Shown here piece after piece: positions 743 to 32,685 of a stretch of 33,731 nt of DNA; position 1 is the first letter of the stretch; every line of letters starts with the position of its first letter. A model generated the notes under the pieces. It made no database searches, had not been told where the DNA came from, and saw only the letters and a list, made by a program, of their open reading frames with translations. The position numbers were made by a program, and so were the translations under genes. This DNA is from an uncultured Erysipelotrichaceae bacterium (lineage in GTDB: Bacteria > Bacillota_I > Bacilli_A > RFN20 > CAG-826): contig CAMVEL010000021.1 of assembly GCA_947166565.1 (NCBI GenBank), positions 1 to 33,731 of the forward strand, in the 5' to 3' direction.

Positions 743-1018
743 ATGGAACATGAATCGTTAAAAGGATTAAATGAAGAACAAATTGCGAAAGTCAAAGCTT
801 GCAAAAACAGTGATGAACTTTTGGCATTAGCTAAAAAAGAAGGTATTGAACTTACCGATGAACAATTAGCATCGATTAATGGCGGCGCTTGTATTTCGTT
901 CTCATCAATTCATTGTCCAAAATGTGGCTCTACAAATCACAAACTAGTTACATATTACCAACTTCTAAATGAATGCAGTTACTTTGTGTGCGAAGACTGC
1001 GGTTGGGAGTGGGAATAA
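743..1018 (+). CDS. Nif11-like leader / zinc-ribbon small peptide (copy 1)
   Basis: 91 residues. The ATG at 743 is chosen because AAAGGAG at 727-733 is correctly spaced; the in-frame TTG at 722 lies upstream of that site. Residues 1-48 are a charged helical leader (LKGLNEEQIAKVKAC, then ALAKKEGIELTDEQLASINGG) ending in a double-glycine-type motif. The tail resembles Nif11-type RiPP precursor leaders. The core begins with Ala-Cys and carries CPKC, 21 residues, CEDC, then GWEWE: a zinc-ribbon pattern with aromatic residues after the last pair. There are no membrane segments. It is the first gene of a pair with 1050. Whether the leader is cleaved, and the function, are not known from the sequence. 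Confidence 0.85.
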   Translation: MEHESLKGLNEEQIAKVKACKNSDELLALAKKEGIELTDEQLASINGGACISFSSIHCPKCGSTNHKLVTYYQLLNECSYFVCEDCGWEWE

Positions 1019-1049
1019 TTAATAAAACTAACAAAGGATAAATCTGATT

Positions 1050-1328
1050 GTGAAACAAGAATTATTAAAAGGGTTATCTGAAGAACAGATCGCTAAAGTC
1101 AAAGCTTGTAAGGACCAAGAAGAACTTTTGAAACTCGCTAAAAAAGAAGGCATTGAACTTACCGATGAGCAATTAGAAGCTGTTAGCGGCGGATGTTTCA
1201 CCGATTCTAAACCCGCTGTATGCCCAAAATGCGGCGCCGTCAATGATTATACTGTGTATGTGGCCCCCAATGGACGAGGAGCCGGGCAAAGAATGTGCAA
1301 TAAATGCGGCTACATAGGCGATTTCTAA
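1050..1328 (+). CDS. Nif11-like leader / zinc-ribbon small peptide (copy 2)
   Basis: 92 residues starting at a GTG preceded by AAAGGA at 1033-1038. It lies 31 bp after copy 1 without its own GTGRC element, so the two are probably co-transcribed. The leader has LKGLSEEQIAKVKACKD and ends in LEAVSGG at residues 47-48. The core opens with CF and has CPKC, 21 residues, CNKC, then GYIGDF. The spacer is Gly/Arg-rich (NGRGAGQR), unlike its neighbours. The leader is very close to copy 7 (21914) and copy 9 (24524), while the cores differ: conserved leader, variable cargo. No terminator follows directly; the nearest is at 1519. Confidence 0.85.
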   Translation: MKQELLKGLSEEQIAKVKACKDQEELLKLAKKEGIELTDEQLEAVSGGCFTDSKPAVCPKCGAVNDYTVYVAPNGRGAGQRMCNKCGYIGDF

Positions 1329-1518
1329 ATAAGTGTTCAAAACCTAGATATTTTGGATAAGGATTTTAGGGCAAACACGTGAGTTTATCCTAAAAGCCAT
1401 TTACCGATTTGTTGCGGTGCGGATAAAGTTTTGTTTGGAAAGAGCCGCGATCGTGCTACGCTTTTTTATAGGTCTCTTTAATATAAGAAATCAATTAGTG
1501 GGTTAATCCATTTAGGAA
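1329..1518. other. Intergenic stretch without a recognisable gene
   Basis: No supported reading frame was found. A 7-bp inverted repeat, TTTTAGG (1364-1370) with CCTAAAA (1389-1395), encloses an 18-nt loop. It lacks a T-tract, so it is not a standard terminator. GGATAA/TTATCC words, also seen in the GGACAA-rich repeats, occur around it. Confidence 0.4.
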
Positions 1519-1545
1519 GCCGAGTGGAATATCTCGGTTTTTCTT
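1519..1545 (+). terminator. Rho-independent terminator (CCGAG/CTCGG family)
   Basis: CCGAG (1520-1524) pairs with CTCGG (1533-1537), followed by TTTTTCTTTC. It is directly followed by repeat copy B. Confidence 0.8.
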
Positions 1546-1550
1546 TCGCT

Positions 1551-1664
1551 TTCAAAGGACGAAGGATTTTGGACAACTCAGGACGGATTGGTTTGGATAA
1601 CGACACCTTGTCGTCGTCCAAGGCCACTTATCCAGAATTGGACAAAACGACTTATCCGAGATAG
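1551..1664 (+). repeat. GGACAA-rich intergenic repeat, copy B
   Basis: Closely matches copy C at 2450: TTCAAAGGACGAAGG, TTTTGGACA, CTCAGGACGGATTGG. It then has a hairpin built from GGATAACGAC (1595-1604) and TCGTCGTCC (1611-1619), and CTTATCCAGAATTGGACAA. GGACAA and its complement occur several times, which suggests a protein-binding array or a structured transcript. Confidence 0.65.
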
Positions 1665-1691
1665 AACCGCGTGATAGCGGCCTTTCTTTTT

Positions 1692-1724: not shown

Positions 1725-1750
1725 GGATTAAATTAAAGGGGTAACCGAAC

Positions 1751-2050: not shown

Positions 2051-2074
2051 AGTGATTTGCACCATGCTTTTTGC

Positions 2075-2638: not shown

Positions 2639-3118
2639 ATGAAATTAAAAGAATTAAGAAATGAATACAACTTATCGCAGCTAGAAGCAGCCAATATTTT
2701 GGGCATTCCTGAAAGAACATATCGTAGATATGAAACTGACGATAATTATGGAAGTTTAATAAAACGTAAAATGTTTATTAATATGTTAAATGAACACTGC
2801 GAAATAACTGAAGAGAAGGGTTTGCTTAGTGTTCAATTAATTAAAGAAAAAGTATCTGCTTTGTTTGATAACGAATATGATGGACAAATTGATTTTTGTT
2901 ATTTGTTTGGCAGTTACGCAAAAGGATTAGCTAATGAAAAAAGCGATGTAGATTTATATGTTTCATCATCCTTGACCGGCTTACGTTTTGTTGGACTTAT
3001 TGAAAGATTAAGACAAACACTTCATAAGAAAGTTGACCTTATCCGAAGTAGCGAACTCAATAATAACATAGACTTGGTAAATGAAATATTGAAAAGTGGC
3101 ATTAAGATATATGGCTGA
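2639..3118 (+). CDS. HTH-fused MNT-type nucleotidyltransferase antitoxin (MntA-like)
   Basis: 159 residues. Residues 1-50 look like an XRE-type helix-turn-helix (LSQLEAANILGIPERTYRRYE). Residues 65-159 are a minimal nucleotidyltransferase with the signature GSYAKG (91-96) and SDVDLYV, whose two Asp (103, 105) bind metal. Known MntA antitoxins AMPylate the HEPN toxin HepT and are encoded next to it; a HepT fragment overlaps the 3' end here. The HTH fusion suggests it also represses its own promoter through the GGACAA array upstream. The Shine-Dalgarno is weak (GGATAAAG). The region is AT-rich, consistent with horizontal gain. The catalytic motif looks intact. Confidence 0.85.
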   Translation: MKLKELRNEYNLSQLEAANILGIPERTYRRYETDDNYGSLIKRKMFINMLNEHCEITEEKGLLSVQLIKEKVSALFDNEYDGQIDFCYLFGSYAKGLANEKSDVDLYVSSSLTGLRFVGLIERLRQTLHKKVDLIRSSELNNNIDLVNEILKSGIKIYG

Positions 3119-7406: not shown

Positions 7407-10400
7407 ATGAAGCGCATTAGGAAAGCGAGCAAATGGATATTCTTGGGGGCAAGCGCGTTAGTGCTTGCTTCTCTTATTGTTGGCACCAAAATCGAATCCG
7501 ATTATGACCCGATCATCGCGGGCGCCTTAAATTCCTATGCATCGGAAGATACGGTATCCTCTTCCTCTACCAAAGAGCAAAAGGCAAGCTTAGGGAGCGA
7601 GCTATGCACCCAAATCATTGAAGAAGGGGCGGTATTGCTGAAAAACGCCTCTCTTGATAATGGCACTAAATCGCTACCTTTAAACGCAAGGGAAAAGCGA
7701 GTCAATATCTTTGGCTATGGCGCCACAAATGAAGGATGGCTCCAATATGGCATTGGCAGTGGGTCCACTAAACCCCAAGAGCGAAAATCATATACCCTCC
7801 TCGATTCTTTCGACGCATCGCGCTATTCCTATAACAAAGACATCATCTCTGCATATTCGAGCTTAAATTGGGTAAAACGCGCGGAAGGCAAAAGGGAAGA
7901 CACCAAAAAGTCTTATGTCTATAACCTGCGCGAGGCTTCTAGAAGTTGGTATGAAAGCCAGCCTGAATTATTGGAGAACGCTAGGAGCTATAGCGATACC
8001 GCAATATTCGTGATCTCGCGCATTTCGGGCGAGAACACTCGTACCGATAGCGTCGCAAAAGAATCCGTCCCTGCCGAGCAATACCTATTGACCAATGGAT
8101 CGGAGACGAAAGAAGTCATAACCGATAAGACATATTTGGAGACGACCTATGTCGAAGAAGGCGTCATCGATATGCTTGCGGAGAATTTCAAGAACGTCAT
8201 TGTCTTGATCAATTCCACCAACGCAATGTTCTTGCCTTCCATCGCGGATGCGGATGAGCGGGTGAAATCGATTTTGTATTGTGGCGTCACCGGCGAAAGC
8301 GGCACGAAAGCCATCCCCGATTTGCTTTGGGGCAACGTTTCGCCTTCTGGCCACCTTGCAGACACTTTCCCGATGCATCCAATCGCTGACCCAGCGTTTG
8401 CGAATCGCAATGACTATGTCTCAGCTGTATTCCAAGAAGGGATCTATTTTGGCTACAAATGGTATGAGACGGCAGACGCCTCAAAATTCTGGGAATCCTC
8501 TTTCTCCAAGACGAATCTAGGGATATCCAAATACGAGGAAGCGGTGTTCCGTCCCTTCGGATATGGCTTGTCGTACACTTCTTTCTCTTGGGAGATCAAA
8601 TCCATTAAGACAGGCGAAAGCGAATACACGGGTGGTCCGATTTCCGAAAACGAAGAATTCGAAGTGATTGTAAAAGTCACCAACACGGGAGACAAAGCGG
8701 GCAAAGAAGTAGTGCAGCTTTATTACACCCCACCTTACGTAAGCGGAGGGATAGAAAAAGCGAGCGTCAACCTGCTTGATTTCGAAAAGACCATATCCTT
8801 AGAGCCAAATCAATCCATGGATTTGACATTATCCTTCTCCGCCTACGATATGGCCTCATTCGATAGCTACGATGCAAACCATAATGGCTTTGCTGGATAC
8901 GAATTAGAGGGGGGCTTGTATGCGTTAACGCTAAGAAGCGACGCCCATACCATCAAAGATGAATTGTCTTTCGATATCGAAGTTGCTTCTACGGGGATCC
9001 AGTTCAATAATGACCCCATAACCCATCATAAGGTCGAGCCCCTTTTCAGCGGTCCTAATGCTTACGCTGGGCTAAGCATCGATGGCCAAGGTTTTTTAGG
9101 CAACAATGGATCTGGCATCACTTATCTATCTAGAAATAATTTCGCATCGACCTATCCGCTATCGAAAGCCGATGGAACCATAAAAGCCAATCTCGACAAA
9201 GCGAACTCCGCTTTCGATTTCGATGCGACCTCTACCTATAATTTTGCCTCTATGCCAGCTAATGGCGTGGAGAAGAATCTTCGCCTCGTCATCAGAAGCG
9301 ACGGAAGCAATGCGACCATGGCCGATTTGAAGGGCGAAACATCGGCTTCCCTCAAATTGAACGAACCCCTTATCAAAAAACTAAGCGATTTCTCTGCCTC
9401 GGAGTGGGAGGACTTGCTTTCGGAGATGAGCCTAAACGACTACATCGAGCTCATCTGCTTTGCTGGTTTCAAAACCTCAGGAATCGCTTCTATCGGCAAA
9501 CCTCAAACACGCGATATCGATGGTCCTGCTGGGTTCAATGGGGTCTATTCCATCGTCCCGGCCGTCGATCCAAAATGGACCGCATTCCCTAGCCAATCTA
9601 TCTTAGCCTGCTCTTTCTCTAAGCGCCTTGCCTATAATCTTGGCTGTTTGCTAGGCATGGAAGCCCAATCGGAAATCACCCCCTGCAATGGCATCTACGG
9701 TCCAGGCGCCAATTTGCACCGCTCGCCATTTGGAAGTCGGAATTATGAATATTATTCCGAGGACCGTTACCTAAGCGGGATCCTAGCAAGCAATGAGATC
9801 AGAGGTGCCAAAACCAATGGCCTATATATGTTCATGAAGCACTTCATCGCCGACGAGCAAGGGTATAACCCTCGCGGAACCTACACCTGGATGAGCGAGC
9901 AAGTCCTGCGTGAAGAATATTGCCGTCCGTTTGAGATCGCCGTGAAGCAAGGCGAAGCCAACGCGATCATGACTTCCTTCAATTGCCTTGGCAACATCTA
10001 TGTTGGCCATAATAAAGCATTGTGCACCACATTGCTTCGCGAGGAATGGGGATTCCAAGGCATGGTCCTTACCGATTATTATGTCGCCTCCGATTCAAGC
10101 AAAGACGGCACCATGCGCGCGCCAAAGTGCATCGCAGCGGGCAATGACGCCATCTTGAATCCCAGCGCCACTTCCTATGGCTATAAGCCCAATACCAGTA
10201 ACGTCGCCTCGATGAATCTTGCTAGGGCGGCTGCCAAAAACATCATATTCACCTATGTCGATACCCATTATTACGCGTTGACCCATGAAGTGGAGGACGT
10301 CATTTACAATATCGATATCGAGATCAAAGCGGCTCAGCTCACTTCATCCATCCTCCCATCCTTCCTTTTGGGCTTGACTATCGCGCTGGGTGTAATACTT

Positions 10401-10970
10401 GCCGTAATTAACGCTTGGAACTTCCTCCGTCCCAAAGTCAAAGAGGATGGCGTCATGTATTTAACGCCGCAAGAAGAGGCCGTCCATAAGCAAATCAGAA
10501 TCTATTTGCCTCTAGGCTTAGTGGTTACGAGCCTAGTGCTCTCGTTAGTCGCTAGAGCAGCGGTGGAAAAATCGTTCTTCGCGAATTTCGCATCCGGCTT
10601 ATTTAGCGATATCGGCACGGCGTTTACGAAGTTTGGCTTCGGAATATTGATGAACGTCTTCGTTTATTTTGGCCTGATTGCCATCATCGCGACCGCGGTT
10701 CTATTCATCCTCAAGTTCATCAAGGACAAAAAGCTAGTGACCGTCATCGCCTTCTCGTCCTTATTGCTTTCGATCGTCGCGACTATCTCATTCGTAGGCG
10801 TGTTGCTATTCGCTTTGTCGAGCGGGGCATTCCTAAAGAACATCGCCGACGTCATATTCATGGCGGGCGTCGGCATAAGCGCCTTGCTCGCTTTCGGGTT
10901 ATCCCTAAGGAACGTGATTTCCTTATATATCGGCAAAAACATTAAGGAGGAAGCTTCTAATGAAGAATAA
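7407..10970 (+). CDS. Membrane-anchored glycoside hydrolase family 3 with permuted domain order
   Basis: 1187 residues. An N-terminal membrane segment (about 10-30) is followed by the GH3 alpha/beta sandwich domain (about 55-385, ending FRPFGYGLSYTSF). Next comes a fibronectin-III-like domain (about 395-520, VKVTNTGDKAGKEVVQLYY), then the TIM-barrel domain (about 665-950). The barrel carries DGPAGFN, NLHRSPFGSRNYEYYSED, KHFIAD and GMVLTDYY. Asp890 in LTDYY is at the nucleophile position of the usual SDW motif. Domain order is the reverse of classical GH3, as reported for some rumen beta-glucosidases. About five transmembrane helices end the protein (residues 975-1180), which is unusual. The likely role is removing beta-linked sugars outside the membrane; the substrate is unknown. 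No good ribosome site is visible, so translational coupling to the upstream gene is likely. Confidence 0.85.
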   Translation: MKRIRKASKWIFLGASALVLASLIVGTKIESDYDPIIAGALNSYASEDTVSSSSTKEQKASLGSELCTQIIEEGAVLLKNASLDNGTKSLPLNAREKRVNIFGYGATNEGWLQYGIGSGSTKPQERKSYTLLDSFDASRYSYNKDIISAYSSLNWVKRAEGKREDTKKSYVYNLREASRSWYESQPELLENARSYSDTAIFVISRISGENTRTDSVAKESVPAEQYLLTNGSETKEVITDKTYLETTYVEEGVIDMLAENFKNVIVLINSTNAMFLPSIADADERVKSILYCGVTGESGTKAIPDLLWGNVSPSGHLADTFPMHPIADPAFANRNDYVSAVFQEGIYFGYKWYETADASKFWESSFSKTNLGISKYEEAVFRPFGYGLSYTSFSWEIKSIKTGESEYTGGPISENEEFEVIVKVTNTGDKAGKEVVQLYYTPPYVSGGIEKASVNLLDFEKTISLEPNQSMDLTLSFSAYDMASFDSYDANHNGFAGYELEGGLYALTLRSDAHTIKDELSFDIEVASTGIQFNNDPITHHKVEPLFSGPNAYAGLSIDGQGFLGNNGSGITYLSRNNFASTYPLSKADGTIKANLDKANSAFDFDATSTYNFASMPANGVEKNLRLVIRSDGSNATMADLKGETSASLKLNEPLIKKLSDFSASEWEDLLSEMSLNDYIELICFAGFKTSGIASIGKPQTRDIDGPAGFNGVYSIVPAVDPKWTAFPSQSILACSFSKRLAYNLGCLLGMEAQSEITPCNGIYGPGANLHRSPFGSRNYEYYSEDRYLSGILASNEIRGAKTNGLYMFMKHFIADEQGYNPRGTYTWMSEQVLREEYCRPFEIAVKQGEANAIMTSFNCLGNIYVGHNKALCTTLLREEWGFQGMVLTDYYVASDSSKDGTMRAPKCIAAGNDAILNPSATSYGYKPNTSNVASMNLARAAAKNIIFTYVDTHYYALTHEVEDVIYNIDIEIKAAQLTSSILPSFLLGLTIALGVILAVINAWNFLRPKVKEDGVMYLTPQEEAVHKQIRIYLPLGLVVTSLVLSLVARAAVEKSFFANFASGLFSDIGTAFTKFGFGILMNVFVYFGLIAIIATAVLFILKFIKDKKLVTVIAFSSLLLSIVATISFVGVLLFALSSGAFLKNIADVIFMAGVGISALLAFGLSLRNVISLYIGKNIKEEASNEE

Positions 10971-19686: not shown

Positions 19687-19719
19687 TTCAGTGCCCCGTT
19701 TGCCAGACTGAGCTTTCTT

Positions 19720-19750
19720 GTGGCGCTTTTTTGACAAATATTGTGATAAC
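19720..19750 (+). promoter_or_regulatory. GTGRC-type promoter element for the HAD lipoprotein gene
   Basis: GTGGC (19720-19724) and TTGAC (19731-19735) are 11 bp apart, with GATAAC at 19745-19750. The segment CTTGTGGCGCTTTT is identical to those in front of two peptide genes (21373 minus, 21618). Confidence 0.6.
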
Positions 19751-21398: not shown

Positions 21399-21431
21399 AC
21401 AATAACAAATTAGTTGTCACAAAAGCGCCAC
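21399..21431 (-). promoter_or_regulatory. GTGRC direct-repeat promoter element for copy 5
   Basis: On the minus strand GTGGC (21431-21427) and GTGAC (21420-21416) are 11 bp apart, with a TATTGT/TGTAAT -10 region near 21404-21396. It directly abuts the tRNA-like fragment at 21435. Confidence 0.6.
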
Positions 21432-21434
21432 AAG

Positions 21435-21463: not shown

Positions 21464-21558
21464 AGGAGCGACCTTTTGAGTTTCTATAAATTGCGTAATA
21501 GCGGTTTTTAAATGACAAAAGAAAAGAATTAGCCTTGTATAAAAACTCGGTTTTTCTT

Positions 21559-21592
21559 GTGGCGCTTTTGTGACAACGATTATGGTAGGATA
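21559..21592 (+). promoter_or_regulatory. GTGRC direct-repeat promoter element for the gene at 21618
   Basis: GTGGC (21559-21563) and GTGAC (21570-21574) are 11 bp apart, with GGATAT at 21588-21593 as a possible -10. A decayed CCGAG/CTCGG terminator (ACTCGGTTTTTC, 21544-21556) abuts it on the 5' side. Confidence 0.6.
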
Positions 21593-21617: not shown

Positions 21618-21905
21618 ATGAAACAAGAATTATTAAAAGGTTTAACCGAAGAACAAATTGCCAAAGTCAAAGCATGTAAAAACAGTGATGAACTATTAAC
21701 ACTGGCTAAAGCAGAAGGAATTGAACTCACTGACGAACAACTCACCGCTATTAATGGTGGCGGTGCCTGCACCGTTGCTTCGAATGTCGGGGATTTTATC
21801 AATCCGTTCGATTGCCCGGAATGCGGATGCAACGATGTTAAGGCGGTGAAAGGCAAAGGCAATCTATTCCAATGCCAAGGATGCGGATTTAAATGGAGGG
21901 AGTAA
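21618..21905 (+). CDS. Nif11-like leader / zinc-ribbon small peptide (copy 6)
   Basis: 95 residues. ATG 21618 is preferred over the in-frame TTG at 21612 because AAAGGAG (21601-21607) is better spaced to it. The leader LKGLTEEQIAKVKACKN ends in LTAINGGG. The core opens with ACTVASNVGDFINPFD and has CPEC, 16 residues, CQGC, then GFKWRE. The segment between the GG and the first CxxC is longer than in most copies. It matches copy 7 (ACSAISDLGDKINPWD), so the two neighbours are tandem duplicates. Copy 7 starts 8 bp after this stop. Confidence 0.85.
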   Translation: MKQELLKGLTEEQIAKVKACKNSDELLTLAKAEGIELTDEQLTAINGGGACTVASNVGDFINPFDCPECGCNDVKAVKGKGNLFQCQGCGFKWRE

Positions 21906-21913: not shown

Positions 21914-22210
21914 ATGAAACAAGAATTATTTAAAGGATTAACCGAAGAACAGATCGCAAAAGTCAAAGCCTGTAAGGACCAAGAAGAACTTTTGAAACTC
22001 GCTAAAAAAGAAGGCATAGAATTAACCGACGAACAACTCGCCGCTATTAACGGCGGCGGCGCTTGTAGTGCCATTTCTGATTTGGGCGATAAAATCAATC
22101 CATGGGATTGCCCAAAATGCGGTGCGAACAGACCTGTAAAAGATGGCAACACGTACACTTGCGAGAAGTGTGGCTACAAATGGACAGATAATAGTTCCCC
22201 AGCACATTAA
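21914..22210 (+). CDS. Nif11-like leader / zinc-ribbon small peptide (copy 7)
   Basis: 98 residues. ATG 21914 follows GGAGGG (21895-21900), which lies inside the end of copy 6. The frame extends upstream to 21893, but that start would overlap copy 6. The leader FKGLTEEQIAKVKACKD ends in LAAINGGG. The core has CPKC, only 13 residues, CEKC, then GYKWTDN: the most compact ribbon of the set. It has no GTGRC element of its own and is co-transcribed with copy 6. A perfect family terminator follows at 22224. Confidence 0.85.
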   Translation: MKQELFKGLTEEQIAKVKACKDQEELLKLAKKEGIELTDEQLAAINGGGACSAISDLGDKINPWDCPKCGANRPVKDGNTYTCEKCGYKWTDNSSPAH

Positions 22211-22415: not shown

Positions 22416-22514
22416 TTAACGAAGAAAATCCTTGATTGGCTATAAGGCTATCAAATGGCTATTTATGCGACAAAATCGCGGAGAAAGTATTCAGAAAAAG
22501 GAACTTTTCCTTTT

Positions 22515-22545
22515 GTGGCGCATCTGTGACAATCGCAATGATAAT
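22515..22545 (+). promoter_or_regulatory. GTGRC direct-repeat promoter element for the gene at 22571
   Basis: GTGGC (22515-22519) and GTGAC (22526-22530) are 11 bp apart, with GATAAT at 22540-22545. An AAAAGGAA/TTCCTTTT inverted repeat lies immediately 5'. Confidence 0.65.
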
Positions 22546-22570: not shown

Positions 22571-22864
22571 ATGATAAAAAAAGAATTATTAGAAGGCTTG
22601 ACCGAAGAACAAATCGCCAAGGTCAAGGCGTGCAAGAACCATGATGAATTGTTGGCGTTTGCAAAAGAAAAAGGCATTGAACTAACCGAGGAACAATTAT
22701 CCGCGGTTAGTGGCGGATGCGGGACCTATACGGTTAGATGCCCAAAATGCGGCAGCAACATCATCGTTGAAGATTGCGTAGGCAAAAAAGACTATTATTG
22801 CAATTCCTGCGGACACGAATTCAACGATAACCTTTGGGAAGATATTAAAAACTTAGTTAACTAA
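22571..22864 (+). CDS. Nif11-like leader / zinc-ribbon small peptide (copy 8)
   Basis: 97 residues. ATG 22571 follows TTGGAG (GGAG at 22560-22563); the frame is open further upstream but crosses the promoter element. The leader MIKKELLEGLTEEQIAKVK, with Cys21, has one extra N-terminal residue and ends in LSAVSGG. The core opens CGTYTVR and has CPKC, 16 residues with an extra Cys (VEDCVG), CNSC, then GHEFND. Its tail is longer than usual (NLWEDIKNLVN). It lies 120 bp upstream of the CobW-type GTPase with no strong terminator between them, so partial co-transcription is possible. Confidence 0.85.
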   Translation: MIKKELLEGLTEEQIAKVKACKNHDELLAFAKEKGIELTEEQLSAVSGGCGTYTVRCPKCGSNIIVEDCVGKKDYYCNSCGHEFNDNLWEDIKNLVN

Positions 22865-22931
22865 TTGGGTAAAACCCATAACAATTGGTTAACGAGAAGA
22901 AGAATAGAAGACTGCAATAGCTATGCCTACT

Positions 22932-22960
22932 TTGTAGAAGCAGGAATAAAGTGGTATAAA
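22932..22960 (+). promoter_or_regulatory. Probable vegetative promoter of the CobW-type gene
   Basis: TTGTAG (22932-22937), a 17-bp spacer and TATAAA (22955-22960) lie 24 bp ahead of the start codon. The -10 is good and the -35 only fair. Confidence 0.5.
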
Positions 22961-22984
22961 TTCTATTTGAAGAAGGATTTTTTC

Positions 22985-24217
22985 ATGATGAAATTTAAAA
23001 CGGTACCTATCACCTTAATCACAGGTTACCTCGGAAGTGGGAAAACCACATTAATCAACCACATTTTAAAGAATGCGAAAAACCATAAAATCGCGGTCAT
23101 CGTCAACGATATCGGCGAAGTCAATATCGACGCGGATTTAATCGCTAGCGGAGGCATCGTCTCCGGAAAAGACGATTCTTTGGTGGCCCTTTCTAACGGA
23201 TGCATTTGCTGCACGTTAAAAGAAGACTTAACCAAGCAATTGGCGGATTTGGTCAATTCCAGGAACTTCGATTACATCCTAATCGAGGCTTCCGGCATTT
23301 GCGAACCCGTCCCCATCGCTCAGACCATTACCTATATGGAAGAGGAATTCGATAGGCAAAAATTGCCCAAATTCTATACACTGGATTCCATTATTTCCGT
23401 CACCGATGCCTTAAGGCTAACCGATGAATTCGGCTGCGGAGAAGCGTTAAAAGAGACGGAAAGAGAAGAAGAAAACCTCGAAAACCTCGTTATCCAGCAA
23501 CTGGAATTCTGCGACATCGTTTTGCTAAACAAAGTCAGTGAGATTTCCGAAGAAGAACTAAAGAAGGTGAAGATAGCGATTAAAGGCATCCAACCCGAAG
23601 CGAAGATCATCGAATGCGATTATTGCAATGTCGATATCGATGAACTCGTTGACAACCATCTATTTGACTTCAACAAAGCCGCGGGAAGCGCCGCCTGGAT
23701 TCGCGAATTTGAAGATTGGGATAACGAAGTCGATCACAGTAAGGAAGAACACCATCATGACGATGACGACGATGACGACGAACATGAGCACCATGAACAC
23801 GGTCATCACCATCACCATCACGGCATCGAAAACGAAGAAGAAGGCACTGCTTTGGAATATGACATCAACACCTTCGTCTATTATCGGAGAAAGCCCTTTG
23901 ACAAAGAGCGGTTCAAGAAATGGGTAGAGGAATCCCCAAAGCATAAAATCATTCGAGCGAAGGGCGTCTGCTATTTTTCCGATGACGAGAAAAACCTCTA
24001 TATCTATGAAAGCGCAGGCAGGCAAAGGACGTTGAGTTGCCATGGAAAGTGGCTATCTGACCGCATCAGCAAACAACAGATTAAAAACCTTCTAAAAACC
24101 GATAAAAACTTCGCGCATGATTGGGATGACCAATATAAGGAAAAACTAATCAAGCTTGTCTTTATCGGACAAAACCTAGACGAAAAGGCAATTAGAAACG
24201 AATTAGATCAAATCTAA
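22985..24217 (+). CDS. CobW/G3E family metal-chaperone GTPase
   Basis: 410 residues. ATG 22985 (or the adjacent ATG at 22988) follows AAGGA (22973-22977). The frame is open for 40 more codons upstream, but these are not protein-like. The G1 loop GYLGSGKTT is at about residues 14-22, the metal-binding CxCC (NGCICC, Cys73-76) follows, and IEASGICEP and LLNKVSE fit G3 and G4. A His/Asp-rich stretch (HHHDDDDDDDEHEHH, then HHHHHH) lies near residues 258-278, before the C-terminal CobW domain. The family delivers zinc or other metals to client proteins using GTP. Its position among many zinc-ribbon peptide genes makes a zinc role plausible. The specific metal and client are not determined. Confidence 0.9.
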   Translation: MMKFKTVPITLITGYLGSGKTTLINHILKNAKNHKIAVIVNDIGEVNIDADLIASGGIVSGKDDSLVALSNGCICCTLKEDLTKQLADLVNSRNFDYILIEASGICEPVPIAQTITYMEEEFDRQKLPKFYTLDSIISVTDALRLTDEFGCGEALKETEREEENLENLVIQQLEFCDIVLLNKVSEISEEELKKVKIAIKGIQPEAKIIECDYCNVDIDELVDNHLFDFNKAAGSAAWIREFEDWDNEVDHSKEEHHHDDDDDDDEHEHHEHGHHHHHHGIENEEEGTALEYDINTFVYYRRKPFDKERFKKWVEESPKHKIIRAKGVCYFSDDEKNLYIYESAGRQRTLSCHGKWLSDRISKQQIKNLLKTDKNFAHDWDDQYKEKLIKLVFIGQNLDEKAIRNELDQI

Positions 24218-24274: not shown

Positions 24275-24275
24275 C

Positions 24276-24291
24276 GTGGCGCATTTGTGAC
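24276..24291 (+). promoter_or_regulatory. Orphan GTGRC direct-repeat element
   Basis: GTGGC (24276-24280) and GTGAC (24287-24291) match the best copies (GTGGCGCATTTGTGAC, identical to the one at 32340). No peptide gene follows: the next start is at 24524, which has its own element. It may be the remnant of a deleted family member. Confidence 0.5.
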
Positions 24292-24374
24292 GTATATCGG
24301 AGTTTTGCATGTATTTTTCGGATGATTAAATTGCTATTAAGGACTCTGAAACTAGGCGACACGTGGCAAAATAG

Positions 24375-24390: not shown

Positions 24391-24464
24391 AAACGGTGGA
24401 TTGGTGATTTTTATAACTATACGAAATACTGTTATTAAGAGAGGCATGCCGCAATTTTTTATTT

Positions 24465-24495
24465 GTGACACATCTGTGGCATCCCAAGCGATAAC
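24465..24495 (+). promoter_or_regulatory. GTGRC element, reversed half-site order, for the gene at 24524
   Basis: GTGAC (24465-24469) comes first and GTGGC (24476-24480) second, still 11 bp apart, with GATAAC (24490-24495). Copies 4 and 10 show the same order with GCGGC as the second site. Confidence 0.6.
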
Positions 24496-24523: not shown

Positions 24524-24823
24524 ATGAAAAATGAATTACTAAAGGGATTAAGCGAAGAACAAATCGCCAAAGTTAAAGCTTGTAAGAACCAAGAAGAACT
24601 TTTGAAACTCGCTAAAAAAGAAGGCATTGAACTTACCGATGAACAATTGGAAGGTGTCAGCGGCGGAATGTGTACCTCCACTCCTAATGAACCATGCCGT
24701 TCATGCGGATCATGGAATGTTAAATGGGAAAAAGAGATGACTGACGTTTCGTTCCATCACTCATTTACATGCACATGCAAAGATTGCGGAGCGATCTGGC
24801 ACATCGATAGTCCAAATCTTTAA
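24524..24823 (+). CDS. Nif11-like leader / zinc-ribbon small peptide (copy 9)
   Basis: 99 residues. ATG 24524 has a modest GGGAA (24511-24515); an in-frame TTG at 24518 is less likely. The leader LKGLSEEQIAKVKACKN ends in LEGVSGG. The core opens MCTSTPNEP and has CRSC, the only first pair without Pro, then 23 residues including CT, CKDC and GAIWHIDS. It belongs with copies 4 and 5 in the CTCKDC subgroup. A weak CGAG/CTCG inverted pair (24826-24840) follows the stop and looks like a decayed family terminator, so read-through to copy 10 is possible. Confidence 0.85.
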   Translation: MKNELLKGLSEEQIAKVKACKNQEELLKLAKKEGIELTDEQLEGVSGGMCTSTPNEPCRSCGSWNVKWEKEMTDVSFHHSFTCTCKDCGAIWHIDSPNL

Positions 24824-24857
24824 GTCGAGTGAGGCATCTCGTTTATTAATGTTTTTT

Positions 24858-24890
24858 GTGACACAACCGCGGCATTCCAAACGGTAACAT
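24858..24890 (+). promoter_or_regulatory. GTGRC-type promoter element for the gene at 24916
   Basis: GTGAC (24858-24862) and GCGGC (24869-24873) are 11 bp apart, with GGTAACAT (24883-24890) as the -10 region. Confidence 0.55.
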
Positions 24891-24915: not shown

Positions 24916-25188
24916 ATGGAAAAAGATTTATTTCAAGGCTTAACCGGAGAGCAAATCGAAAAAGCCAAAGTCTGTCAAAACAATGAAGAGTTGTTGGCAT
25001 TAGCCAAAGAAGAAGGCATCGAACTCACCAAGGAACAATTAGAAGCCGTCAATGGTGGGTACAGCGGATGCCTATCAACCCCATCCATGCCATGCCCAAG
25101 ATGCAAAAGCATGAACATCCACCGCTATCACGGGGCCACCCGTTGGTTTAACGAATGCCTCGATTGTGGCCGCGAATGGATGTGCTAA
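24916..25188 (+). CDS. Nif11-like leader / zinc-ribbon small peptide (copy 10)
   Basis: 90 residues. ATG 24916 follows AAAGGGG (24900-24906). The leader is the most diverged at its start (MEKDLFQGLTGEQIEKAKVC) and ends in LEAVNGG. The core opens YSGCLSTPSMP and has CPRC, 17 residues, CLDC, then GREWMC, with a Cys as the last residue. From the leader's middle to the terminator it is nearly identical to copy 11 (27563), including the following hairpin, so the two share a recent common origin. Confidence 0.85.
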   Translation: MEKDLFQGLTGEQIEKAKVCQNNEELLALAKEEGIELTKEQLEAVNGGYSGCLSTPSMPCPRCKSMNIHRYHGATRWFNECLDCGREWMC

Positions 25189-27352: not shown

Positions 27353-27504
27353 CTTCATTACCTCCTAATGTACCCAATATTCGCAGTGGTGATAAGGTCT
27401 TTTCGAGCTTGGCTTTTCTACAAATATTTTATTTTTTATTTGCCGGCATAAATAGCCCCATCTTTATATCTATGCTTTCTAGGGTTTGATGGTGGAAGGT
27501 CTTT

Positions 27505-27536
27505 GTGGCGCATCTGTGACGATGGCAGGATATAAT
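27505..27536 (+). promoter_or_regulatory. GTGRC direct-repeat promoter element for the gene at 27563
   Basis: GTGGC (27505-27509) and GTGAC (27516-27520) are 11 bp apart, with a perfect TATAAT at 27531-27536. From TATAAT through the ribosome site it is identical to the element of copy 12. Confidence 0.65.
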
Positions 27537-27562: not shown

Positions 27563-27835
27563 ATGAAAGAAGAACTTTTGAAAGGTTTAACCAAAGAGCA
27601 GATCGCCAAAGCCAAAGCCTGTCAAAACAATGAAGAGTTGTTGGCATTAGCTAAACAGGAAGGCATCGAACTCACCAAGGAGCAATTAGAAGCCGTCAAT
27701 GGTGGGTACAGCGGATGCCTATCAACCCCATCCATGCCATGCCCAAGATGTAATAGCACGAACATCTACCGCTATGACGGAGCTAACCGTTGGTTCAACG
27801 AATGCCTCGATTGTGGCCGCAAATGGAAGTGCTAA
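27563..27835 (+). CDS. Nif11-like leader / zinc-ribbon small peptide (copy 11)
   Basis: 90 residues. ATG 27563 follows CAAGGAG (27547-27553). The leader LKGLTKEQIAKAKACQNN ends in LEAVNGG. The core YSGCLSTPSMP, CPRC, 17 residues, CLDC, GRKWKC differs from copy 10 at only a few positions (NST for KSM, Tyr for His, Asp for His, Asn for Thr). The changes remove two His and alter the tail. The 5' untranslated region instead matches copy 12, so the gene looks like a recombinant of the two neighbours' halves. Confidence 0.85.
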   Translation: MKEELLKGLTKEQIAKAKACQNNEELLALAKQEGIELTKEQLEAVNGGYSGCLSTPSMPCPRCNSTNIYRYDGANRWFNECLDCGRKWKC

Positions 27836-27884: not shown

Positions 27885-27930
27885 ATTTGGCTTGGGCCAA
27901 ACAACCAGCCTATTCCATATGAACTATGCT

Positions 27931-27962
27931 GTTGCACTTTTGTGATGGATGATTGTTATAAT
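27931..27962 (+). promoter_or_regulatory. Degenerate GTGRC element for the gene at 27989
   Basis: GTTGC (27931-27935) and GTGAT (27942-27946) keep the 11-bp phasing, with a perfect TATAAT at 27957-27962. Both half-sites have drifted, which may weaken control. Confidence 0.5.
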
Positions 27963-27988: not shown

Positions 27989-28261
27989 ATGAGAGAAGAA
28001 CTACTTAAAGGTTTAACCGAACAACAGGTTTCCAAATTAAAAGGATGCAAGAACCAGGAAGACGTTTTGAAAATCGCCAAAGAGGAAGGCCTAGAACTCA
28101 CCGATGAGCAATTGGAAGCCATTTCCGGTGGTAGCATTTGCGCGCCGGCCTGTCCAAATTGCGGAACAAAGGAACACGTTTATAAAAGTTGGGAAGAAGG
28201 AACGGAGGATAAATACGTCTGCAAAAAATGCGGCGCCATCGTCGGTGATTTCGGACTGTAA
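27989..28261 (+). CDS. Nif11-like leader / zinc-ribbon small peptide (copy 12)
   Basis: 90 residues. ATG 27989 follows CAAGGAG (27973-27979). The leader LKGLTEQQVSKLKGCKNQ ends in LEAISGG. The core opens SICAPA and has CPNC, 19 residues, CKKC, then GAIVGDF. The spacer is acidic (WEEGTEDKY). The final GAIVGDF replaces the usual aromatic GYxW pattern and resembles the end of copy 2 (GYIGDF). A decayed copy of a family gene follows 33 bp downstream. Confidence 0.85.
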   Translation: MREELLKGLTEQQVSKLKGCKNQEDVLKIAKEEGLELTDEQLEAISGGSICAPACPNCGTKEHVYKSWEEGTEDKYVCKKCGAIVGDFGL

Positions 28262-28294: not shown

Positions 28295-28449
28295 ATTAGG
28301 AAAGAAGAACTACTTAAAGGTTTGACTGAAGCGCAGGTCGCTAAGTTCGAATAGTGCAATAGCCAAGAGGAAATATAAAGGTCGCCAAAGAGGAAGGCAT
28401 CGAGCTAACCGATGAGCAGCTAAAAATCAAAACAATGCGATTTGCCTAA
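28295..28449 (+). pseudogene. Decayed Nif11-like leader peptide gene
   Basis: The frame from 28295 reads KEELLKGLTEAQVAKF, then Glu and a TAG (28352-28354) followed by a preserved Cys codon and NSQEEI, then TAA (28376-28378). After a frameshift it continues VAKEEGIELTDEQL (from 28381). The start codon is ATT, there is no GTGRC element, and the GG site and zinc-ribbon core are gone. It is closest to copy 12 in its first codons. This is direct evidence for gene loss in the family. Confidence 0.8.
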
Positions 28450-28692: not shown

Positions 28693-30477
28693 ATGGGTTA
28701 TTTATTCAAAAAATTCACCGTGCGGAACTGGATTGCGATCATCGTCATCCTTCTCCTTACCGTCGTGCAGGTCTACTTCACGATGGCGGTCGTCGGCTGT
28801 GTTAATGAGTTGATGAATGTAGTCCAGCGCAAAGATGTCGATGAAATCTGGAAAAACGGTTTCTGGATGATTCTCTCGGCCTTGTTGCTGGCAGCCGCTC
28901 AGACGGTCATCTCGATCATCGCCTCCGCGACCGCGAGTTCCATTGCGACCAGAACTCGTAAGGAACTCTATGAGAAGATCAACGCGTTATCCCTTGCCGA
29001 CATGGCTGGATTCTCCACCGAATCCCTCATCACCAGAACCACCAACGACATCCAGAACGTCCACTTGGCGTTCCTTACCGCTTTGCGTACGGTCTTCGTC
29101 GCTCCGATCACGATGGTTTGGTCCATCATCATGCTCGTCCAAACCGGTATCGCGCAATTGACGGTTGGCACTATCATCTGGTTGGTCTTGCTTGTCGTTG
29201 CCGTTATCTTCTTGATTCTATTGGTCATCCCGAAATACAAAGCCGTTCAGCGTTTGACCGACGCCCTCAACGTCGCAAGCCGTGAAAACCTCACCGGTAT
29301 CCGCGTCGTCCGCGCCTTCAACGCCGAAAAATATCAGGAAGAGAAATTCGAAAAGGTCAACATCGACTTCACCAAGAAGCAGATCTTCGTCGCCAAGGCC
29401 TTGGCCTTCTTCACCCCGTTCGTCATGTTCGTCATGATGGGTCTCACCTTGACGATCCTCTGGATTGCCTGTCTTATCATCCATGGCAATTTCAACATGG
29501 AGCAAGCCACGGTCGGATTTGCCGCGACGAACTCCTTCGTCATGCTCGCTTCCCAGATCGTCATGGGCTTCATCTTACTTATCTCCATCATCCTCCTTTG
29601 GCCCCGTGCCACCGTCTCCGCAAGACGTATTCGTGAGGTTCTCGTCCACACCGAATCCATCATCGATCCAGAGAGCCCCGTCGAATTTAAGGAAAAGGGT
29701 ACCATCGAATTCCGCAACGTCGGATATGCTTATCCAGGCGCGGACAAGGAATCGATTTCCCATGTTAGCTTCAAAGTAAACAAAGGCGAGACCATCGCCT
29801 TCATCGGTGCGACGGGCTCAGGCAAAACGACCATCATTAACATGATTCCACGTTTTGCCGATGCCACTAGTGGCGAAGTCTTCGTCGATGGCGTCAACGT
29901 CAAGGACGTCCGTCAGGAAGATTTGCGCAAGAAGATCGGTTATACCCCACAACGCGGCTTCCTTTTCAAAGGAAACATCCGCGAAAACATTGCTTTCTCC
30001 AATCCTGAGATGACCATGCAGGATGTCAAGAAAGCGGCCGAAATCGCCTGCGCCGCCGAATTCGTCGAAGGAAAGCGCGAGCAATACGATTCCGAGGTTG
30101 CCCAAGGCGGAACCAACTTCTCCGGCGGCCAGAAGCAGCGTCTTTGCATCGCTCGTTCCGTCGCGAAATTCCCGGAAATCCTCATTTTCGATGACTCTTT
30201 CTCCGCCCTTGACTACCGCACCGACAAAGTCGTGCGCAAAAACATCAAGGACTCCATGCCCGGCGTTACCCGCGTTATCGTCGCCCAACGCGTCGGTACC
30301 ATTATGGATGCGGATCAAATCGTCGTTCTCGATAAAGGCGAAGTGGTTGGCTTAGGCAAACACGAAGACCTCGTGCGCAACTGCCCGGTTTACCAGGAAA
30401 TCGCCCTTTCCCAGCTTAGCAAAGAAGAACTCGGCCTTGCCCCAAAGCAAGCCGCCGCTGCTAAAGGAGGTAACTAA
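28693..30477 (+). CDS. ABC exporter subunit with degenerate catalytic site (heterodimer half 1)
   Basis: 594 residues. ATG 28693 follows AAAGGA (28681-28686). Six transmembrane helices (about residues 12-310) precede the ATPase domain. Walker A GATGSGKTT is at about 372-380, the signature FSGGQKQRL follows, and Walker B ILIFDDSFSALD has Asp501 where Glu is normal. An Asp here is typical of the degenerate-site subunit of heterodimeric exporters such as TM287/288 and LmrCD. There is no N-terminal C39 peptidase domain, so it would not itself cut double-glycine leaders. It is followed 2 bp later by the partner subunit. Substrates of such pumps range from drugs to peptides and lipids. Codon use is G/C-rich and housekeeping-like. 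Confidence 0.9.
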   Translation: MGYLFKKFTVRNWIAIIVILLLTVVQVYFTMAVVGCVNELMNVVQRKDVDEIWKNGFWMILSALLLAAAQTVISIIASATASSIATRTRKELYEKINALSLADMAGFSTESLITRTTNDIQNVHLAFLTALRTVFVAPITMVWSIIMLVQTGIAQLTVGTIIWLVLLVVAVIFLILLVIPKYKAVQRLTDALNVASRENLTGIRVVRAFNAEKYQEEKFEKVNIDFTKKQIFVAKALAFFTPFVMFVMMGLTLTILWIACLIIHGNFNMEQATVGFAATNSFVMLASQIVMGFILLISIILLWPRATVSARRIREVLVHTESIIDPESPVEFKEKGTIEFRNVGYAYPGADKESISHVSFKVNKGETIAFIGATGSGKTTIINMIPRFADATSGEVFVDGVNVKDVRQEDLRKKIGYTPQRGFLFKGNIRENIAFSNPEMTMQDVKKAAEIACAAEFVEGKREQYDSEVAQGGTNFSGGQKQRLCIARSVAKFPEILIFDDSFSALDYRTDKVVRKNIKDSMPGVTRVIVAQRVGTIMDADQIVVLDKGEVVGLGKHEDLVRNCPVYQEIALSQLSKEELGLAPKQAAAAKGGN

Positions 30478-30479
30478 AG

Positions 30480-32276
30480 ATGGCAAAAGCAACTACCGCG
30501 CAAAAAAATAACAATTTTGCCCGTTTGAAAGACCTCTTCAAATACGCCCGCAGATACTATGTTCCGATGATGATTTCCATCATCTTGCTCATCGCTTCCG
30601 CGGTCCTCTCCATCCTCTCGCCGCGTTACGTGCAAACGCTAACGAACCTCATTTCTCCAGCGGAATTGACCGAAGGCGCTGGCGGCATGGTCCAGGTCAA
30701 GATGGATCTCTTCGTCCAAAACGCCGTCACCTTGCTCGCCTTCATCGTCCTGAGCTTCGTGCTTTCGACGATCTCTGGCATGATCTTCAACGTTGCGGTC
30801 CAAAAACTCAGCCGTGACATCCGTACCTCCATCAGTGAGAAGACGAACAGGATGCCATTAAATTACTTCGACACCAAACAAATCGGTGACATCCTCTCGG
30901 TCATCACTAACGACGTCGATGCTCTTTCCACTTCCTTACAAAACTCCATTACCTTGGCGGTTCAGGCGGTGGTAACCCTTGTCGGCGTCATCATCGCGAT
31001 GTTCATCTCCGAGTGGCATATGGCCCTTGTCGTCCTTATCTCGCTCCCAATCATCCTCATCGCGATCTTCGTCATCTTCCATTTCGCCACCCCGTTATTC
31101 GGCAAGAACCAAAACCTCTTGGGCGAAGTCAACGCCGAAGTCGAAGAAAGCTTCACCGGTCAGATCGTCATCAAGGCGTTCGGTGCCGAAAAGCGTAAGA
31201 ACGCTCAATTCGGGGTCAAAAACGGTGCCCTTGGCAAGACGTTATATTCCTCTCAGGCCCTTGGTGGAATCATCGAACCGGTCATGAGCGTCCTCTCCTA
31301 CCTCACCTATGCAGCCGTCATGATCGTTGGCGGTCTCCTCTATACCCAAGACTCAATCCAACTTGGCCTCATCACCGGGTTCCTTGTTTACGTCTCCTTA
31401 TTCCAGCAGCCGCTTTCCGAAATCGGGCAAATCGGTTCCACCGTCCAGCTCGGTATCGCCGCGGCGGGTCGTGTCTTCAACTTCCTTGCCGAAGAAGAAC
31501 TACCAGACGAATCCGAAAAGAAGACCGGTCTTCTCGACCACGACCACATCCGTGGCGAAGTCGAATTCCGCAACGTGGCCTTCGGCTATGATCCCGCCAA
31601 GCTCACCATCAAGAACTTCAATCAGAAGATTCAACCTGGCATGAAGGTCGCCATCATCGGTCCTACGGGCGCCGGCAAGACCACTTTGGTCAACTTGCTC
31701 ATGCGTTTCTATGAGACCACCAAAGGCGATATCTTGGTCGATGGAGTTTCCATCCACGATATGAAACGTGAAGAGCTCCGCGACGTGTTCGGCATGATTT
31801 TGCAGGAAACCTGGGTCATTAACGGTACCCTCCGCGAGAACATCGTCTATAACCTCAAGGATGTCAGTGAGGAAAGACTCAACGAGATTTTGAAGGAAAC
31901 CTCCTTGGACCACTTCGTCTCCACCTTGCCACAAGGCATCGACACCGTTATCCAAAAGGATTCCGCCCTCTCGGCTGGACAGAAGCAGCTCGTCACCATC
32001 GCCCGTGCGATGGCCGAGAATTCGCCGATGCTCATCCTCGATGAAGCGACCAGTAACGTCGATACCCGTACCGAAATCCTCATCCAGAGCGCGATGGATT
32101 CGTTGACCAAAGGACGCACTTCCTTCGTCATCGCCCACCGTCTCTCCACCATCAAGAACGCTGACCTCATCATCGTTATGAAGGCCGGCGACGTCGTCGA
32201 GACTGGAACCCATGACAGCCTCATGGCCCTTGGTGGACTCTACAGCGAGATCTACAACTCACAGTTCAATAACTAA
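30480..32276 (+). CDS. ABC exporter subunit with canonical catalytic site (heterodimer half 2)
   Basis: 598 residues. ATG 30480 follows AAAGGAGG (30463-30470), which lies in the end of the first subunit gene. Six transmembrane helices (about residues 18-335) precede the ATPase domain: Walker A GPTGAGKTT (about 394-402), signature LSAGQKQ, Walker B MLILDEATSNVD with catalytic Glu522, and the H-loop AHRLST. Together with the first half this forms one degenerate and one active ATP site. There is no peptidase domain. A strong terminator follows at 32305, and a peptide gene of the Nif11-like family starts 121 bp downstream from its own promoter. Confidence 0.9.
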   Translation: MAKATTAQKNNNFARLKDLFKYARRYYVPMMISIILLIASAVLSILSPRYVQTLTNLISPAELTEGAGGMVQVKMDLFVQNAVTLLAFIVLSFVLSTISGMIFNVAVQKLSRDIRTSISEKTNRMPLNYFDTKQIGDILSVITNDVDALSTSLQNSITLAVQAVVTLVGVIIAMFISEWHMALVVLISLPIILIAIFVIFHFATPLFGKNQNLLGEVNAEVEESFTGQIVIKAFGAEKRKNAQFGVKNGALGKTLYSSQALGGIIEPVMSVLSYLTYAAVMIVGGLLYTQDSIQLGLITGFLVYVSLFQQPLSEIGQIGSTVQLGIAAAGRVFNFLAEEELPDESEKKTGLLDHDHIRGEVEFRNVAFGYDPAKLTIKNFNQKIQPGMKVAIIGPTGAGKTTLVNLLMRFYETTKGDILVDGVSIHDMKREELRDVFGMILQETWVINGTLRENIVYNLKDVSEERLNEILKETSLDHFVSTLPQGIDTVIQKDSALSAGQKQLVTIARAMAENSPMLILDEATSNVDTRTEILIQSAMDSLTKGRTSFVIAHRLSTIKNADLIIVMKAGDVVETGTHDSLMALGGLYSEIYNSQFNN

Positions 32277-32304
32277 TTCCGTTTCGGAATAAACGTTAAC
32301 GAAT

Positions 32305-32340
32305 AAGCCGACTACTCAGGCAAGTCGGCTTTTCCTTTTG
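32305..32340 (+). terminator. Rho-independent terminator of the ABC exporter operon
   Basis: AAGCCGACT (32305-32313) pairs perfectly with AGTCGGCTT (32323-32331), followed by TTTCCTTTT. Its T-tract abuts the next GTGRC element. Confidence 0.9.
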
Positions 32341-32372
32341 TGGCGCATTTGTGACAAACGACGTGTTAACAT
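32340..32372 (+). promoter_or_regulatory. GTGRC direct-repeat promoter element for the gene at 32398
   Basis: GTGGC (32340-32344) and GTGAC (32351-32355) are 11 bp apart, with TTAACAT (32366-32372) as the -10 region. Confidence 0.6.
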
Positions 32373-32397
32373 AAGGCCACAAAGGAATTTGTTAATC

Positions 32398-32685
32398 ATG
32401 AAAGAAGAACTATTAAAAGGCCTAACAGAAGAACAGATCGCCAAGGTCAAGGAATGCAAAAGCCAAGATGAACTATTGGCCCTTGCCAAAAAAGAAGGCG
32501 TTGAATTAACTGAAGAACAACTTAACGCGATTAATGGTGGATGTGGCAAATCAAAAGAATGGTACGAAATCGATAACATGCAATGTCCTGAATGCCTTAA
32601 TAGCCACTGCATGGAAAAAGTTAGTGACGCTTGGTATAGATGCAAATGGTGCAACAAGATCACCATTAACAAAAACCTCCAATAA
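32398..32685 (+). CDS. Nif11-like leader / zinc-ribbon small peptide (copy 13)
   Basis: 95 residues. ATG 32398 follows AAAGGAA (32381-32387). The frame is open upstream to 32338, but that part spans the promoter element. The leader LKGLTEEQIAKVKECKSQ ends in LNAINGG. The core opens CGKSKEWYEIDNMQ and has CPEC, 15 residues with an extra Cys (NSHCME), CKWC, then NKITINKNLQ. The tail is basic and polar without the usual Gly-aromatic pattern. It is the copy closest to the ABC exporter genes, but it is transcribed separately. Confidence 0.85.
   Translation: MKEELLKGLTEEQIAKVKECKSQDELLALAKKEGVELTEEQLNAINGGCGKSKEWYEIDNMQCPECLNSHCMEKVSDAWYRCKWCNKITINKNLQ

Follow-up and report, generated by a model that had tools for sequence, protein, structure and literature searches.

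Thirteen small genes are scattered over a 33,731-nucleotide stretch of DNA from an uncultured Erysipelotrichaceae bacterium (GenBank assembly GCA_947166565.1, contig CAMVEL010000021.1), and each of them joins a leader of the Nif11 type, ending in two glycines, to a core with the four cysteines of a zinc ribbon. What are such peptides for, and how might they reach their place of action? We analysed the whole stretch (hereafter the window; 46% GC), which corresponds to contig C21 of an assembly of 1.85 Mb with a completeness rating of 92%, together with the rest of that genome and its relatives. The answer that we favour, and hold to be probable though well short of certain, is that the genes encode jointly induced zinc-ribbon mini-proteins that are cleaved after the double glycine and leave the cell through an NHLM-like exporter.

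A dispersed family of Nif11-leader zinc-ribbon peptides

A first-pass annotation of the window had listed thirteen intact genes of 90–99 amino acids (aa), and all were verified, twelve with an ATG start and one with a GTG start. On the plus strand they occupy positions 743–1018 (91 aa), 1050–1328 (92 aa, the GTG start), 1751–2050 (99 aa), 2122–2400 (92 aa), 21618–21905 (95 aa), 21914–22210 (98 aa), 22571–22864 (97 aa), 24524–24823 (99 aa), 24916–25188 (90 aa), 27563–27835 (90 aa), 27989–28261 (90 aa) and 32398–32685 (95 aa), and on the minus strand 21080–21373 (97 aa); we refer to each by its first coding position. A decayed further copy, a leader remnant with stops, lies at about 28301–28428 on the plus strand. 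The alignment of the thirteen contains 20 invariant columns, including leader Cys20, Gly48 of the double glycine, Cys50, which directly follows it, and all four cysteines of the core. A profile built from these copies, against which they themselves scored 111–138 bits, retrieved 17 more full-length copies from the same genome at 100.7–121.3 bits, which points to a true family and not to a chance collection. The thirteen genes are therefore real but are only the window's share of 30 full-length copies, which lie on 12 contigs and are accompanied by fragments and by one short relative on a 13th contig.

The same fusion was found in 17 genomes of a first set of 61, the other 44 being without peptides, and in 3 of the 20 genomes of a second set, made up of own-family genomes among those listed and lying outside the first set. 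When the class as a whole was sampled, the family was detected in 5 of 395 genomes, all within the window's own taxonomic family. The named relatives that bear it were assembled from metagenomes, carry the labels Erysipelotrichaceae, Bacilli or Lachnospiraceae and in many cases come from ruminant guts (we take RUG in the assembly names to stand for rumen). No relative of the peptides was found on viral contigs and the one peptide queried against plasmids gave no match, and carriage by a phage or plasmid was rejected on these grounds. Two peptides scanned with PADLOC gave no match either.

The leader and its processing site

Substrates of C39 peptidases with double-glycine leaders carry Leu at −12, Leu at −7, Val or Ile at −4 and Gly-Gly ahead of the cleavage site. 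The peptide leaders keep this C39 processing motif: among 270 zinc-ribbon copies, Leu−12 is present in 269, Leu−7 in 260, Val or Ile−4 in 261 and the double glycine in 269. The cysteines are kept almost as strictly. A CxxC-CxxC pair follows the leader in 257 of the 281 distinct proteins from the fetched loci, the remaining 24 being mostly decayed, short peptides or cut by contig ends; leader Cys20 is found in 254 of the 257, and an extra, fifth cysteine on the core side, 0–4 residues past the double glycine, in 256.

Profile searches for leader and core covered 10 of the 13 window proteins. The Nif11 leader model TIGR03798 matched all 10, although at 19.6–23.6 bits they stayed under its cut-off of 32.3, as did the best match in the genome (26.8 bits), and PF07862 exceeded its gathering score of 23.8 only in 1751 and 27989 (26.0 and 25.3), the remainder scoring 17.0–22.0. 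The double-glycine signature TIGR01847 was exceeded in one protein, 21914 (16.8 versus 15.7). The description as a Nif11-type leader with a double-glycine site, fused to zinc-ribbon cores, is supported, and the family behaves like one of precursors of ribosomally synthesized and post-translationally modified peptides (RiPPs).

An NHLM-like exporter accompanies the peptides

No modification enzyme had been seen near the genes, which is true of the window, but an exporter and a radical S-adenosylmethionine (SAM)/SPASM protein are encoded on other contigs of the genome. The exporter, an ATP-binding cassette (ABC) protein with a C39 peptidase domain, lies on contig C39 (3920–6091) at 3 kb from two peptide genes. 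TIGR03796 was the best of the models listed for it, with 835 bits (834.8) compared with 354 for the next model; the cut-off of 853.3 was passed in none of the 61 genomes, the best relative scoring 852.6. Beside it are encoded a second ABC protein, for which TIGR03797 was the best of the models listed (667 bits, cut-off 709.4), and an HlyD-like protein of 132 aa with 22 bits to TIGR03794 (cut-off 156.2). The operon also holds genes for a SpoIIE-type phosphatase, a HipA-like protein and a STAS protein. The C39 catalytic motifs were intact in all 18 exporters scanned. In G025, whose exporter was left out of that scan, the C39-ABC gene (L200:3006–5140) is split into two overlapping frames, through either an assembly error or a broken gene. 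Of 19 exporter loci, 6 had zinc-ribbon genes in the stretch that was fetched.

Other candidates for the exporter were rejected. The two ABC genes of the window, at 28693–30477 and 30480–32276, are without a C39 domain and reach only 232 and 274 bits with TIGR03796, and two further C39-domain genes of the genome (a 409-aa frame on contig C2 and a 265-aa frame on contig C37) are not full exporters. The genome, at its 92% completeness, gave no match to LanC-like PF05147 and none to YcaO PF02624.

The exporter and the peptides occur together. Counting the exporter as present at 638 bits or more in the 61-genome set (other TIGR03796 matches there, at about 340–350 bits, were ordinary ABC proteins and were left uncounted), we found it in 14 of the 17 peptide-positive genomes and in 1 of the 44 others (14/3/1/43, Fisher p 4e-10) and, within the genus, in 13/16 versus 1/15 (13/3/1/14, p 3e-5); for the radical SAM protein the counts were 15/17 versus 1/44 (15/2/1/43, p 3e-11) and, within the genus, 14/16 versus 1/15 (14/2/1/14, p 6e-6), these Fisher values overstating the independence of events in genomes that are akin. 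In the second set the exporter was present in 3/3 positive and 0/17 negative genomes, and the radical SAM protein in 2/3 and 0/17, respectively.

A radical SAM/SPASM operon with short leader peptides

On contig C3, the gene for a short Nif11-leader peptide is followed by that for the radical SAM/SPASM protein, and the operon also encodes a histidine kinase and a response regulator, as well as a second HipA-like protein, a STAS protein and an RsbW-type ATPase. In relatives, the genes of this operon and the exporter genes are often joined in one operon, and a homologue of the response regulator is present in 7 of 15 other exporter loci. The radical SAM protein matches PF04055 (75.5 bits) and PF13186 (34.2 bits), both above cut-off, and its nearest PDB sequence is SkfB (3.8e-10). 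Among the matches listed for five radical SAM proteins no named NCBIfam equivalog was above cut-off, and the N-terminal 90 residues gave no PqqD or RiPP recognition element (RRE) match in Pfam or PDB sequences. A PADLOC match of this protein to pVip (66 bits) was read as general similarity of radical SAM folds. The HipA-like proteins of the operon (L153:2215–3420, L166:8623–9825) belong to no Pfam family; among solved sequences the kinase CtkA comes nearest to them (E 6.8e-4), and the model has a predicted local distance difference test score (pLDDT) of 85.9; a PADLOC match to PDC-M03A (36 bits) was taken as general kinase-fold similarity.

Sixteen loci hold the radical SAM gene uncut, and in 10 of these the short-peptide gene immediately precedes it. 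Twelve short peptides were compared, a further one (L101) falling outside the leader pattern used. All 12 have a cysteine after the double glycine and lack the ribbon, and 9 share a C-terminal pattern, which was picked after looking. Their leaders are 61% identical to those of the ribbon peptides, compared with 71–72% within each group.

A direct repeat marks the peptide promoters

The first-pass annotation did not notice a direct repeat, TGTGRC-N5-TGTGRC, upstream of the peptide copies. Allowing up to three mismatches, it precedes 26 of the genome's 31 peptide genes and ends 30–43 bp before the start codon (38–43 bp in 23 of the 26), with an exact TATAAT downstream of it in 11. Three of the five genes without the repeat directly follow another copy, namely 1050 and 21914, each the second of a tandem in the window, and the second gene on contig C39. 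In the window the repeat is perfect at 684–701 (before 743), 1691–1708 (before 1751), 21558–21575 (before 21618), 22514–22531 (before 22571), 24464–24481 (before 24524) and 32339–32356 (before 32398) on the plus strand, and at 21415–21432 on the minus strand, before the gene that starts at 21373. On the plus strand it has one mismatch at 27504–27521 (before 27563), two at 2074–2091 (before 2122) and 24857–24874 (before 24916), and three at 27930–27947 (before 27989), this last lying outside the window scan, in which two were allowed and 13 matches were obtained versus 0.64 expected.

When no more than one mismatch is allowed, the genome yields 24 sites, compared with 2 for the reversed pattern, and 16 of the 24 lie ahead of peptide genes. 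In relatives, with at most two mismatches, the repeat precedes 161 of 275 peptide genes, compared with none of 275 simply shuffled sequences and 17 of 464 control open reading frames (ORFs), and it stands ahead of 10 of the 12 short-peptide genes. Among the 17 control matches are HipA-like genes and genes for secreted proteins, for a class 3 lipase and for an AbiEii-like protein, and these repeat-bearing control ORFs are probably further members of the regulon. In the window, a repeat with one mismatch (19719–19736, plus strand) lies 39 bp before a gene for a HAD-family lipoprotein (19776–20840; PF12710, 29.2 bits), a candidate for a further non-peptide member.

Two sites may be recorded separately. 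One is the AbiEii-like nucleotidyltransferase gene behind a repeat in a relative (L147:5234–5944), with similar repeat-bearing proteins in L055 and L140; the other is a repeat-type site with two mismatches at 24275–24292 of the window, behind which there is no recognisable gene.

Fold and diversity of the zinc-ribbon cores

Of the zinc-ribbon family models among the matches listed for the 10 window proteins, none passed its cut-off. A profile of 107 copies, in contrast, matched the zinc ribbons of RPC10, RPB9 and TFIIS among PDB sequences (E 4e-5 to 0.07); its top match (2.8e-8) was an engineered C2H2 protein, which matched via its repeats. In the structure predicted for 2122, the leader is helical with low confidence, the stretch around the double glycine (residues 36–53) is disordered and the core forms three strands (67–72, 78–83 and 89–91) with pLDDT 79–90. 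In a Foldseek search with this model TFIIS came first (E 6.5e-3), and RPA12 aligned at 1.7 Å over 41 columns. With their two CxxC knuckles and the three-stranded fold predicted for 2122, the cores resemble the zinc ribbons of TFIIS and RPB9.

The cores are diverse, with 98 types among 270 copies at 60% identity, of which 53 are single and 25 occur under at least three genome labels (assigned by hand from contig names and lengths; a few may name one assembly twice). The description of the core as hypervariable fits paralogues but not orthologues, since a second genus has some of the core types in almost the same form. G119, a genome of that genus, has cores close to those of 21618 (similar to the commonest core type), 21914, 22571 and 32398, near-identical in the case of the last two. 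In bins of paralogue and orthologue pairs, the ratio of nonsynonymous to synonymous change (dN/dS) was about 0.17–0.29 for the leader and 0.38–0.71 for the core, and in nine orthologue pairs (a tenth was dropped for low core identity) core dN was 0.028 versus a dS of 0.110. Positive selection on the cores was not found in these pairs; on average, leader and core alike are under purifying selection, which is weaker on the core. The core was more identical than the leader in 352 of 474 pairs, a count biased by the choice of pairs on core identity. The core of 1050 is identical to that of L130 of G025 at 41/44 residues with zero synonymous differences, whereas the two leaders are identical at 38/48 with 20 synonymous differences, indicating that leader and core have been exchanged.

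Other genes of the window

A CobW-type GTPase with a His/Asp-rich stretch is encoded among the peptide genes at 22865–24217. A gene with a helix-turn-helix and a polymerase-beta-type nucleotidyltransferase domain at 2639–3118 has a GC content of 30%, compared with 46% for the window. Two large GH3-type proteins (7407–10970 and 14139–17192) are encoded on either side of a lipoprotein with an endonuclease/exonuclease/phosphatase domain. No RNA family or tRNA was found in the window.

Proposed mechanism and alternatives

In the mechanism that we propose, a regulator would bind TGTGRC-N5-TGTGRC immediately ahead of the −10 region, turning on the dispersed peptide genes jointly; most simply, it would be the response regulator whose gene neighbours that for the radical SAM protein. 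The helical Nif11-type leader, with its motif L(-12)...L(-7)..V/I(-4).GG, would be recognised by the C39 domain of the NHLM-like ABC exporter. The cut after the double glycine, together with export, would leave a mini-protein of about 40–50 residues that has a cysteine close to the newly formed N terminus and a four-cysteine ribbon, predicted to fold like that of TFIIS or RPB9 and presumably binding zinc. The radical SAM/SPASM enzyme would most plausibly have the short Nif11-leader peptide as its substrate, and this peptide may be the inducing signal for the histidine kinase. The most likely targets of the ribbons outside would be other cells or surfaces, with the ribbons serving as bacteriocin-like or social effectors; this is a guess and the weakest step of the scheme.

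Several points weigh against this mechanism. Cleavage, export and zinc binding of the peptides are predictions, and their activity is a guess. Leaders and exporters alike score under the curated NCBIfam cut-offs, and the co-occurrence comes from genomes that are akin, as stated above. Three peptide-positive genomes are without the exporter, of which G001 has one decayed copy, G026 has one copy and G024 is 61% complete with 19 matches, and G012 has the exporter without peptides. The repeat, at up to two mismatches, is absent from 114 of the 275 genes of relatives, some of which, uncounted, are second in tandems. The DNA-binding domain of the response regulator matches Trans_reg_C weakly, with 13.2 bits against a cut-off of 26.2. 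The whole-peptide model of 2122 is poor (predicted template modelling score 0.36), and its Foldseek matches are weak, with nothing at E ≤ 0.001. Finally, no immunity genes were recognised beside the copies by inspection, which involved no systematic search, and this counts against a classical bacteriocin role.

The co-occurrence of the radical SAM protein with the peptides (15/17 versus 1/44) also raises the possibility that this one enzyme modifies all the leader peptides in trans, following the logic of the prochlorosins, for instance at the cysteine after the double glycine, and that the ribbons are modified natural products. The leader family and that cysteine are indeed common to the short peptides (12/12) and the ribbons (256/257), and 6 of the 16 uncut loci have no short peptide directly upstream, one of them (L190) having an operon that ends in a ribbon gene. 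In the other 10, however, the short peptide is encoded directly upstream and may be the sole substrate, its leader departs from those of the ribbons (61% identity versus 71–72% within groups) and no PqqD or RRE match was obtained for the N-terminal 90 residues in Pfam or PDB sequences. G137, moreover, has the exporter and six peptides and gave no radical SAM match, its exporter ending at a contig edge. We regard modification of all the peptides in trans as conceivable but doubtful.

The two remaining explanations concern what the ribbon does. It might bind nucleic acid or RNA polymerase in the cytosol, the Nif11-like helix docking on a protein and nothing being exported; cytosolic adaptors with a docking leader were among the options in the first-pass annotation. 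The likeness to TFIIS and RPB9 domains, the four free thiols, which are favoured in the cytosol, and the mostly helical leader of the model speak for such adaptors. They fit poorly with a C39-substrate motif that is near-invariant up to the double glycine, with a stretch after it that is disordered in the model, with the co-occurrence of peptides and C39 exporter, and with a leader that is common to the ribbonless short peptides of the export operon; we consider cytosolic adaptors very unlikely. Exported peptides that capture or buffer zinc, rather than effectors, would account for the four-cysteine site in 257/281 distinct proteins, and the CobW-type GTPase between the copies belongs to a family often tied to zinc handling. 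Metal capture would have no need of many distinct conserved core types, however, and the few repeat-bearing genes examined included no recognisable gene for zinc uptake, the CobW neighbour having been checked in the window only. This role, too, seems unlikely. Exported, jointly induced zinc-ribbon mini-proteins thus remain our preferred explanation, and a bolder form of it can be entertained as a speculation with odds clearly against it: a new class in which about a hundred conserved ribbon core types are reassorted behind a common Nif11 leader, induced through kinase and regulator by a radical-SAM-modified peptide pheromone and directed against other cells, where RNA polymerase or another target of TFIIS/RPB9-like ribbons might be hit.

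Relation to known systems

The first-pass annotation could assign the pairing of leader and core to no class, and in the literature searched, which covered few subscription papers, no account of Nif11, double-glycine, NHLP or NHLM peptides combined with a zinc ribbon was found. If our explanation is true, the Nif11 leader logic serves to deliver a folded domain that binds metal, with as many as about 30 copies in one genome, and export by double-glycine leaders extends to zinc-ribbon proteins, apparently an undescribed route for exporting zinc-binding mini-proteins. The system offers testable substrates, an exporter, an enzyme, a promoter and a visible regulon motif in a little-known rumen lineage, and the promoter repeat provides a handle on further members that lack sequence similarity.

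In its layout the system resembles the pheromone-controlled regulons of class II bacteriocins in streptococci and lactobacilli, in which a kinase and a response regulator control dispersed genes for double-glycine-leader peptides that have a common promoter repeat and one C39 exporter. The histidine kinase and response regulator, the leaders, the exporter and the dispersed repeat-bearing genes all have their counterparts here. In contrast to those regulons, the present one has a Nif11 leader, zinc-ribbon cores, a radical SAM enzyme and SpoIIE/STAS and HipA-like genes in the operons, and no immunity genes were recognised by inspection, without a systematic search. Nif11/NHLM peptides, for their part, have mainly been linked to lanthionine or azole chemistry.

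Streptomyces antibiotic regulatory protein (SARP) activators bind heptameric direct repeats with short spacers (4 nt for PimR) near the −35 region (PMC10972967), and the repeat found here can likewise be written as TGTGRCR-N4-TGTGRCA, although the response regulator reaches only 13.2 bits with Trans_reg_C. Type II pamtide precursors (PMC10787088) are similar in that a RiPP precursor bears a zinc-ribbon motif; theirs has DnaJ-type CxxCxGxG repeats, a central Asp and an O-methyltransferase partner, whereas here we find CPxC/CxxC ribbons, a Nif11 leader and an export system, a methyltransferase not having been searched for. Prochlorosins (PMC10783134) also have dispersed precursors of the Nif11 family served by one enzyme in trans, but their chemistry is the formation of lanthionines by ProcM-type enzymes, as opposed to a radical SAM/SPASM protein and no LanC-like protein here. 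By sequence, the nearest named families, whose cut-offs the system narrowly misses, are those of the Nif11-derived peptides (N11P, TIGR03798) that Haft et al. (2010, PMC2887384) described with NHLM transporters (TIGR03794/03796/03797). The zinc-ribbon cores, the scores under curated cut-offs, the HlyD-like protein of only about 130 aa (22 bits versus 156) and the failure to find a LanC-like or YcaO protein in the genome set our system apart from these, whereas the long Nif11-type leader ending in a double glycine, the large paralogous families within one genome and the association with a C39-ABC protein, a second ABC protein and an HlyD-like protein are features that the two have in common.

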